DNA of 64,000 bases from Commensalibacter communis (lineage in GTDB: Bacteria > Pseudomonadota > Alphaproteobacteria > Acetobacterales > Acetobacteraceae), in the NCBI RefSeq assembly GCF_947179015.1, contig NZ_CAMXCM010000001.1:62001-126000 (forward strand), read 5' to 3'. Position 1 is the first letter of the stretch, and the number at the start of each line of letters is the position of its first letter. A program made the translations under genes and the position numbers. Shown here piece after piece: positions 2,816-52,651 of the stretch. The notes under the pieces were generated by a model. The model saw only the letters and a list, made by a program, of their open reading frames with translations. It made no database searches and was not told the origin of the DNA.

Positions 2816-2821
2816 TTCGTT

Positions 2822-2876
2822 TGGCCCAAGGGGGCGTAAAGCCCAACAGGCTATCTACTGGTTTAGGGGTACGTTG
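2822..2876 (+). promoter_or_regulatory. Candidate structured 5' leader of speD
   Basis: Immediately before speD the composition changes abruptly to GC-rich. Two short hairpins can be drawn: GCCC-AAGG-GGGC near 2824-2835, and GCC-CAACA-GGC near 2841-2851. They are followed by the ribosome-binding site AGGGG (2865-2869), 7 nt before the ATG. C-rich segments of the hairpins could pair with AGGGG and hide it. This would suit translational control of polyamine synthesis. I do not recognise a known riboswitch class, so function is inference. Confidence 0.4.
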
Positions 2877-3338
2877 ATGAACGCACTTGCTCAACTGGGG
2901 ATGGTCTCGGAAGTTCCGAGAAGTAACCAGGTTTCGGGTGATCTTTCATATGAGGAAGATCGCAAAGATTATTTTATTGTTAGAGACGGTATGCGTTTTG
3001 CGGGGACACATTTGCTTGTGGATCTGTGGGATGCGACGAATCTAGATTCTCCTGAAGAAATAGATCGCGTTTTGCGCGAGGCTGCAATTGTTGCGGGCGC
3101 AACAATTTTGCATAGCCATTTCCATCATTTCTCTCCGAATGGTGGTGTATCAGGCGTCGTTGTGTTGGCAGAGAGCCATATTTCGATTCATACGTGGCCA
3201 GAACGCAATTTTGCCGCTTTGGATATTTTTATGTGTGGTTCATGTGATCCATATACATCTATCCCTGTATTGCAACGTTTCTTTAAGCCAGAACGTATTG
3301 TTCTGGACGAACAGAGACGTGGAAAAGAAAATCTCTAG
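2877..3338 (+). CDS. speD: S-adenosylmethionine decarboxylase proenzyme (class 1B)
   Basis: SpeD decarboxylates S-adenosylmethionine, supplying the aminopropyl donor for spermidine synthase. The enzyme is made as a proenzyme and self-cleaves at a Glu-Ser bond to form a pyruvoyl group. That site is visible in AESHISIHTWPE, and FMCGSCDP follows with the conserved cysteine. The protein is about 153 aa, slightly longer than short bacterial class 1B enzymes because of an N-terminal extension. I chose the ATG at 2877 because AGGGG lies 7 nt upstream; a TTG directly before it at 2874 is a less likely start. speE follows, beyond a terminator. Confidence 0.93.
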   Translation: MNALAQLGMVSEVPRSNQVSGDLSYEEDRKDYFIVRDGMRFAGTHLLVDLWDATNLDSPEEIDRVLREAAIVAGATILHSHFHHFSPNGGVSGVVVLAESHISIHTWPERNFAALDIFMCGSCDPYTSIPVLQRFFKPERIVLDEQRRGKENL

Positions 3339-3375
3339 GCCAGATAATTGATCGGCGAGAGTTACAGATCAAGGA

Positions 3376-3406
3376 AAGCTGGGCAAATATAATGCCCAGC
3401 TTTTTT
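3376..3406 (+). terminator. Intrinsic terminator/attenuator between speD and speE
   Basis: The arms AAGCTGGGC (3376-3384) and GCCCAGCTT (3394-3402) pair perfectly around a 9-nt loop, with a six-T run at 3401-3406. It sits inside the speD-speE interval. It either separates two transcription units or reduces read-through into speE. A second 6-bp repeat (TTGATC 3348-3353, GATCAA 3367-3372) lies just upstream. Confidence 0.8.
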
Positions 3407-3436: not shown

Positions 3437-4297
3437 ATGTCTAAACAATGGATCGATGAAACACTTTACGATGAATGGAAGCAAAGCTTTCGTGTTGATA
3501 AAGAGCTAGCTCATAAACAATCTGATTATCAAGATATTCGAATTATTGAGAATGAATTCTACGGACGTGTGCTGTTGTTGGATGGTGTAACGCAAATTAC
3601 TGAAAAAGATGAATTTGTTTACCAAGAAATGCTGACGCATGTTCCATTATTCACGCATGGCAATGCCAAAAGAGTTCTTATCATAGGTGCTGGGGACGGG
3701 GGTGTTCTACGTCGTGTTTTACAGCATCCAGAAGTAGAAAAAGCAACCATGGTGGAAATTGATGGGGATGTTGTATCTTTATCAAAAGAATTCTTACCTA
3801 AGATTTCTGATGGATGTTGGGATAATCCAAGAGCAGAACTTATTATTGGCGATGGTATTCGATATGTTGCGGACGCCAAAGATGAAAGTTTCGATGTGAT
3901 TATCGTTGATAGCACAGACCCAATTGGTGTTGGTGAAGTGTTATTCACAGATGCATTTTATCGTGATTGCGCCCGTATTTTAACAAGCCAAGGGTTGATT
4001 GTTAATCAATGTGGCGTTCCATTTATGCAAGCTGATGAGCTTCGTGAAACAAGTTTGCGTAGGGCCAAATTCTTTTCATATGTGTCTGCTTATGTTGCTG
4101 CGGTTCCAACCTATGTTGGTGGGTTTATGACATTAGGTATTGCTGGAAAAGGCAAGGATCAAACACGACAATCCGTCGATGTAATTACTGAGCGTGCCCA
4201 AAAATCAGGCATTTTAGGTAAAACAAAATATTGGTCACCAGAAGTTCATGCAGCTTCTTTTTGTCTGCCACCATATATTCAAACGCAATTGCCTTAA
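3437..4297 (+). CDS. speE: Spermidine synthase (polyamine aminopropyltransferase)
   Basis: SpeE transfers the aminopropyl group of decarboxylated S-adenosylmethionine to putrescine, giving spermidine. The 286-aa product has the Rossmann-fold signature VLIIGAGDGGVLRRVL, followed by an acidic strand end (MVEID). It also has the substrate-binding loop DSTDPIG, and a C-terminal block (PTYVGGFMTLG) typical of the family. The frame stays open upstream to 3392, but that earlier ATG lies inside the terminator hairpin loop. The ATG at 3437 has an AAGGAC ribosome-binding site and gives the usual N-terminus. It pairs functionally with speD upstream. Confidence 0.95.
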   Translation: MSKQWIDETLYDEWKQSFRVDKELAHKQSDYQDIRIIENEFYGRVLLLDGVTQITEKDEFVYQEMLTHVPLFTHGNAKRVLIIGAGDGGVLRRVLQHPEVEKATMVEIDGDVVSLSKEFLPKISDGCWDNPRAELIIGDGIRYVADAKDESFDVIIVDSTDPIGVGEVLFTDAFYRDCARILTSQGLIVNQCGVPFMQADELRETSLRRAKFFSYVSAYVAAVPTYVGGFMTLGIAGKGKDQTRQSVDVITERAQKSGILGKTKYWSPEVHAASFCLPPYIQTQLP

Positions 4298-52090: not shown

Positions 52091-52240
52091 GGTCAAATGT
52101 TTAGAATTAAAATTTCTCTTATTTTCAGTAGGTTTTGTCAAATATTTCATATTTTACTTTCAGAGATGATAAAAAAGTTTCACTTTTCGATATCAAAATA
52201 AAAAATAGTTGAATAAAAACGGATACATAAAGGGGATTAA

Positions 52241-52651
52241 AGTCAGATAGCGTATAAGCCGGGTTCTGTGAATGTCCGAAGACAAGCGATGACCATTCAT
52301 CTAGAACACGATTCGCATCGTATTTCATGCAACCAACCCGGATAACAAGACGGAAATTCTTCGACTATCTTGCGATAATCCGTTATCCCTATTAGGTTTT
52401 GCTCCTGGTGGGGTTTACCCTGCCATTCTTGTTACCAAGAACGCGGTGTGCTCTTACCACACCATTTCACCCTGACTTGTAATTTATTGAATACTCAACA
52501 AATTCCGACAAGCGGTTTGTTTTCTGTGGCACTTTCCCTAAGGTTACCCTTGCCAGCCATTAACTGGCACCATTTTTCCGTGGAGCCCGGACTTTCCTCT
52601 CTTTATATACCAATGAAGATTTATAAACAGCGATCATCTGGCTATCTGACT
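52241..52651 (-). ncRNA. rnpB: RNase P RNA (bacterial class A)
   Basis: On the minus strand the sequence contains the highly conserved core element GAGGAAAGTCCGGGCTCC (52582-52599) near the 5' end, and ACAGAACCCGGCTTAT (52253-52268) near the 3' end. These two form the P4/catalytic core. The ends pair as the P1 helix: AGTCAGATAG (52642-52651, minus strand) with CTATCTGACT (52241-52250, minus strand). The length is about 411 nt, normal for the class. The RNA processes tRNA precursors with the RnpA protein, which is not in this window. Confidence 0.95.

Follow-up and report, generated by a model that had tools for sequence, protein, structure and literature searches.

Directly upstream of speD, a short segment with a G+C content of 56% (2825-2874) interrupts AT-rich intergenic DNA, in which 50-base windows starting at 2500-2750 contain 14-34%. 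An earlier note on this window (the whole stretch of DNA analysed, 64,000 nucleotides) had remarked on the same contrast, which is borne out by these figures, and had proposed a leader RNA in which two small hairpins could pair with the ribosome-binding site. The locus raises the question of whether the speD mRNA carries a conserved RNA structure, how far such a structure extends and what it may do around the start codon. The features concerned are collected in Table 1.

Table 1. Features of the speD locus and of the RNA element, in window coordinates
Feature	Position	Strand	Remarks
Conserved leader core (model R1)	2819..2863	+	before speD in 80/80 kept relatives
P1, 5' strand UGGCC	2822..2826	+	partner 2849-2853
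P1, 3' strand GGCUA	2849..2853	+	leader comparison
P2 hairpin, GGGC 2832-2835 with GCCC 2841-2844	2832..2844	+	double changes
P3, leader strand AUCU-(A)-CUGGU	2853..2862	+	A2853 common to P1 and P3
Shine-Dalgarno-like AGGGG	2865..2869	+	read from sequence; varies among relatives
speD, S-adenosylmethionine decarboxylase	2877..3338	+	ATG 2877; TIGR03330, PF02675
P3, coding strand ACUGG-GGAU (codons 6-9)	2894..2902	+	partner of 2853-2862
P4, 5' strand CUGG (codons 7-8), overlaps P3	2895..2898	+	paired in 110/118
P5 hairpin, CUCGG 2906-2910 with CCGAG 2916-2920	2906..2920	+	inside P4
P4, 3' strand CCAG (codons 17-18)	2927..2930	+	pairs with 2895-2898
speE, spermidine synthase, gene after speD	3437..4297	+	profile matches

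Locus and Transcript Signals

Among named relatives, Commensalibacter papalotli and C. intestini come nearest to the window, with 96% SpeD identity, and the window's genome contains a single SpeD match. The DNA farther upstream of the leader varies widely among genera, and a sigma-70 scan reports no + strand site directly upstream of the speD leader. Inspection by eye suggests a putative CTTGC/CCTATC-like promoter in relatives, and shows a short ORF at 2703-2759, which lies outside the conserved part of the leader. The minus strand at 1559-2503, divergent from speD, encodes a xylose-isomerase-like TIM-barrel protein, which is kin of the myo-inosose-2 dehydratase IolE and scores below the IolE cut-off. 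The speD-speE gap contains, at 3375-3406, the arrangement AAAGCTGGGC-AAATATAAT-GCCCAGCTTT followed by a T run, by eye a putative intrinsic terminator or attenuator; a terminator scan admitting loops up to 8 does not list this hairpin.

The Leader and Its Hairpins

The leaders of the best 80 of 355 relatives found were compared. In all 80 kept loci the consensus TTGGCCCAAGGGGGC-(variable)-GCCCAACAGGCTRTCTRCTGGT stands, with small changes, directly 5' of speD, and RNAalifold folds 47 distinct leaders into the helices P1 and P2. Among 42 distinct cores, pairing holds in 97.4% of 420 cells, and a single pair shows double changes, in 14 cells. Pairing remains at 97.0% on 79 distinct, more diverged sequences, where double-change cells number 31 vs. 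8.9 in shuffles (0/500 shuffles as high), figures that come from an alignment made by the model and so lean towards the structure. At the third P1 pair, 95 distinct leaders have G-C in 81 cases, A-U in 13 and no pairing in one; in this count the 5' strand is the best-pairing choice, which leans it upward, and locus L189 lacks a tail. The double changes in P2 turn G-C into A-U and C-G into U-A, and in L055, L148 and L151 this hairpin is extended to long stems. A diverged leader form, UUGACC...GGUCAUC, is present in several genera where R1 matches poorly or not at all. The case for the predicted leader structure is a comparative one, the folding energy alone being unremarkable: for a single sequence of 141 nt the z-score is -1.56, with 16 of 200 shuffles equal or lower.

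The examination of speD upstream regions for conserved structure and covariation, which the earlier note had advised, thus gives compensatory changes in P1 and P2 and a leader present throughout the kept relatives. Of the two hairpins proposed there the first (P2) is conserved; the second is not borne out by conservation, its strand pairing instead with 2822-2826 in P1 and with coding sequence in P3. The idea that the hairpins pair with AGGGG finds no support in the comparison, as the bases around the Shine-Dalgarno (SD) sequence vary, and pairing of the SD with the 5' CCC or with P2 was rejected because it is not conserved among relatives. A leader peptide was rejected as well: the reading frame of the leader is not maintained, because the P2 loop lengths vary by non-multiples of three.

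Helices Extending into the Coding Region

Among 139 distinct window-type speD genes, codons 7, 8, 11, 14, 15, 17, and 18, picked after inspection of the data, show a synonymous difference of 0-0.015, compared with a mean of 0.49 and a minimum of 0.21 over 62 conserved positions elsewhere in speD. Taken together, speD codons 2-18 have a mean of 0.125, and the same codons of speE, used as a control (135 distinct genes of these loci), have a mean of 0.48. The frozen codons sit in an N-terminal extension of SpeD, before the catalytic domain, which starts at residue 41-45. The predicted RNA element is one that reaches from the leader into speD, to about 2930, and takes in ~55 nt of coding sequence.

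The pairings involved were assessed on an alignment, A3, of 44 window-type sequences picked for diversity and 15 others. It excludes L239, whose start was not located, and the sequences with a poor fit to P4 and P5 (L225, L226, L243, L256, L273, L281, and L306, and the window-type L162, L188, and L189), so that percentages on A3 lean upward. With no structure supplied, RNAalifold pairs the leader strand CAUCU-R-CUGGU with the coding strand AYUGG-GGAUG (P3), a helix that spans the SD and the AUG; it recovers P3 and P5 on A3, P4 being absent from its result. P3 is paired in 99.6% of 531 cells of this upward-leaning set, and in 37-64% when slid. Five of its nine pairs are invariant, double changes occur at one pair only, in three sequences (L218, L219, and L244), and the double-change measure is matched by 138 of 500 shuffles. 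Measured against dinucleotide-shuffled leaders, P3 does better in 115 of 132 loci (p<=0.05), that is in 87/98 distinct window-type loci and 28/34 others, where the failures are L226, L235, L291, L306, L336, and L340 (the start of L340 may be misplaced). The best P3 partner site of L268 is other than the leader tail, and an uncompensated mismatch occurs in L225, L243, L273, and L344.

The coding helices P4 and P5 vary more and co-vary. On A3, with its upward lean, 97.5% of 530 cells are paired, falling to 20-52% when the partner is slid by 1-3 columns, and the double-change cells number 24 against a shuffle mean of 4.9 (0/500 as high). Among 118 distinct segments, which include all A3 exclusions except L239, L165 being without an anchor, full pairing is seen for P4 in 110 and for P5 in 109, counted in best-pairing registers that lean these numbers upward. 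P4 is of the type CUGG/CCAG in 94, UUGG/CCAA in 9, and CCGG/CCGG in 3, plus rarer ones; in the last-named three (L185, L193, and L196) both amino acids are altered along with the bases. In P5, CUCGG/CCGAG is replaced by CUUGG/CCAAG in other relatives. Mapped onto a tree built from 103 SpeD sequences, the changes come to at least three per side for the outer pair of P4 and to one for the middle pair of P5. This falls short of what a sign test needs, in a set in which only eight non-Acetobacteraceae loci were long enough to be included. The held-out L334 has the P3 strands CAUCC-GCA-CUGAU (leader) and AUCGGGGAUG (coding), the P5 strands GUUGG/CCAAC and the P4 strands UCGGG/CCCGA, so all three helices are altered yet kept. 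Pairing of the leader CUGGUU with AACCAG (codons 17-18) suits many relatives and was rejected, since the compensating changes track codon 7, that is P4.

Some loci show further complementarity. In L336 and L340 (genomes G148 and G717) the P5 loop has ~30 extra bases, partly self-complementary, and the stem CUUGG/CCAAG is kept. In L221, L236, L241, and L268, from other alphaproteobacterial families, CCUCUUCC, in the coding sequence just 5' of P3, complements the SD GGGGAGG, as UCUUCC further on complements GGAAGA beyond P4. Both are possible extensions, of P3 and P4, respectively.

Distribution

Within the order, 301 of 395 genomes have an R1 match at E<=1, those near E=1 being at chance level, and some genera have no tail-compatible match. 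In the class, SpeD is matched in 128 of 337 genomes, and reading of 106 speD loci (L205-L310) places the leader tail directly 5' of the start in 22. A model of the element, R2, has matches at E<=0.01 in 46 of 386 class genomes. The best 30 of these 46 matches were examined as loci, and speD stands at that place in 30/30; many of the matched loci belong to the training alignment, outside which lie L328, L331, L334, L336, L339, and L340. Eight further class matches include speD in five (G831, G881, G981, G966, and G770), and the weak matches G180, G242, and G101 (L346-L348) have no speD in the stretches examined. In 249 genomes of the phylum R2 has 20 matches, 12 of them inside the class, including all strong ones, and eight outside it with E-values, rough as these are, of at least 0.00275. 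R2 locates speD starts in other families of Alphaproteobacteria, and outside the class it has no convincing match.

The leader-tail pattern, allowed up to three mismatches, occurs in 28 of 289 class genomes. Only 3 of 30 loci with this pattern have speD, namely those of the window genome and of two others of the same genus, and the remaining matches look like chance. Inspection of the plasmid-borne speD of Azospirillum thermophilum, Microvirga, and Ensifer (L349-L351) gives no clear copy of the element.

Comparison with Known RNAs

The earlier note recognised no known riboswitch class, and the searches agree: at curated cut-offs no Rfam 15 family matches the element in the window or in nine relatives. 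The sole match of the window at these cut-offs is the bacterial RNase P class A RNA (52239-52649, minus strand). Up to E=10 there is no match in 2760-2920, only sR48 at E=1 (chance level) in 2800-2960, and four chance-level matches in L316. No SAM family appears among the cmscan matches to E=10 in 2760-2920 or 2800-2960, which leaves the element without the SAM-I-type aptamer.

Ribosomal-protein operators, such as the S15 (rpsO) leader, place structure over the SD, the start codon and the early coding region, with alternative folds. The speD element shares this layout, with candidate alternative folds, and differs in gene and sequence; the effector of the S15 type is a known protein.

Three RNAs of polyamine genes invite comparison, as far as their open-access descriptions extend. 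The spermidine riboswitch of Bacillota, a SAM-I variant, precedes polyamine genes including speD, acts by transcription termination and lowers expression upon spermidine binding (PMC10853860). Like it, the element precedes speD and is proposed as feedback control of the same pathway; unlike it, the element has no Rfam match, a much smaller leader and a coding part, and belongs to Alphaproteobacteria. The odc1 motif is an alphaproteobacterial RNA at the start codon of the ornithine decarboxylase gene, with a conserved 11-residue uORF and paired UUG starts, and control of initiation has been proposed for it (PMC8632094). The speD element resembles it in lineage, in lying at a polyamine gene's start codon and in the proposed control of initiation, and differs in the gene, in a leader without a uORF (a conserved one of fixed length is incompatible with its shifting frame and varying P2 loops) and in its structure within the coding region. 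The speF element (RF00518), also alphaproteobacterial, is a long intergenic structure before ornithine decarboxylase whose ligand is not known (PMC1273637). The two are alike as leader RNAs of polyamine genes in this class with ligand not known; here, however, the gene is speD, not ornithine decarboxylase, and the speF covariance model has no match. The open-access literature searched, including PMC10853860, PMC8632094, PMC2864571, PMC1273637, and PMC11109978, describes no speD RNA element of Alphaproteobacteria, and within that scope RNA control of speD in this class seems undescribed.

A Two-State Model and Its Alternatives

The comparison shows the speD mRNA to carry a predicted cis-acting RNA that straddles the start codon, composed of the P1/P2 hairpin, P3, and a P4 hairpin enclosing P5. 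The earlier proposal of a leader RNA holds in that a conserved, covarying cis RNA precedes speD, and gives way in that ~55 nt of it lie in the coding region and its key pairing joins leader to coding sequence. P3 and P4 cannot coexist, because both use 2895-2898. In constrained ensembles 66 of 114 loci have the two states no more than 3 kcal/mol apart; the energy gap is 0.3 in the window and has a mean of 1.06 and an sd of 4.39 over the loci, some anchor errors included. This exclusivity and the similar energies are compatible with a candidate two-state translational switch around the start codon. In both states the SD is predicted to be little exposed, and just 75 of the 114 loci show less exposure in the P3 state; simple SD masking is weakly supported by the modelling. 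Since SD exposure differs little between the states, closure of the whole initiation region is favoured over simple masking.

In the P3 state the helix closes a loop holding the SD and the AUG, so that a single stem would enclose the initiation region and hinder 30S subunit loading. In the P4 state codons 17-18 would hold codons 7-8, leaving the leader strand free. Less surely, spermidine, decarboxylated SAM or SAM may set the balance between P3 and P4, directly or via a protein, and plentiful spermidine would then lead to less SpeD synthesis; gene context alone suggests spermidine or a precursor as the signal. The best explanation overall, to which we would give about an even chance, is a cis RNA straddling the start codon, with a two-state switch between P3 and P4 and feedback on SpeD by a metabolite of the pathway. 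As in riboswitches, conserved structure with compensatory changes lies in a metabolic mRNA. The P3 and P4 states, though mutually exclusive, differ little in predicted SD exposure. A new alphaproteobacterial riboswitch class that senses spermidine or decarboxylated SAM and is built partly from speD coding sequence, the N-terminal extension being so shaped to serve the RNA, is conceivable as a tentative proposal.

The same conserved RNA could serve as a protein operator, through which SpeD or another RNA-binding protein represses or activates translation with no metabolite aptamer involved. The conserved short loops, the strictly conserved single strands and the gene-specific occurrence of the element fit such an operator, which we consider rather doubtful. 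A constitutive fold, fixing the level of translation or the stability of the mRNA without any signal, would accord with species in which P4 or P3 alone is strongly favoured (ddG about -7 to +7 among the examples); a static fold needs no pair of mutually exclusive helices, however, and such a pair is kept across families, which makes this reading improbable.

The ten nearly invariant bases directly 5' of the SD might also serve a trans-acting small RNA as its target, through pairing with the leader strand RUCURCUGG, but the complement of this strand is co-conserved within the same mRNA, and the chance of such a target is slight. Least credible is an effect of a peptide, either from an upstream ORF or from a conserved SpeD N-terminus acting as a regulatory nascent chain. 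TTGGCC does open a frame LAQGG...YWF in many species, and LGMVSE-PS is conserved in the N-terminus of SpeD; yet P2 length shifts the leader frame, synonymous sites are frozen and amino-acid changes accompany matching base changes, all of which speak against a peptide.

Biological Meaning

In many Alphaproteobacteria the speD mRNA carries a conserved folded RNA that looks shaped to control how much of the enzyme is made. Such an element, half leader and half coding sequence, is easily missed by searches restricted to intergenic regions. It could account for the freezing of synonymous sites in the N-terminal extension of SpeD, and polyamine sensing by mRNA in Alphaproteobacteria becomes a directly testable question.
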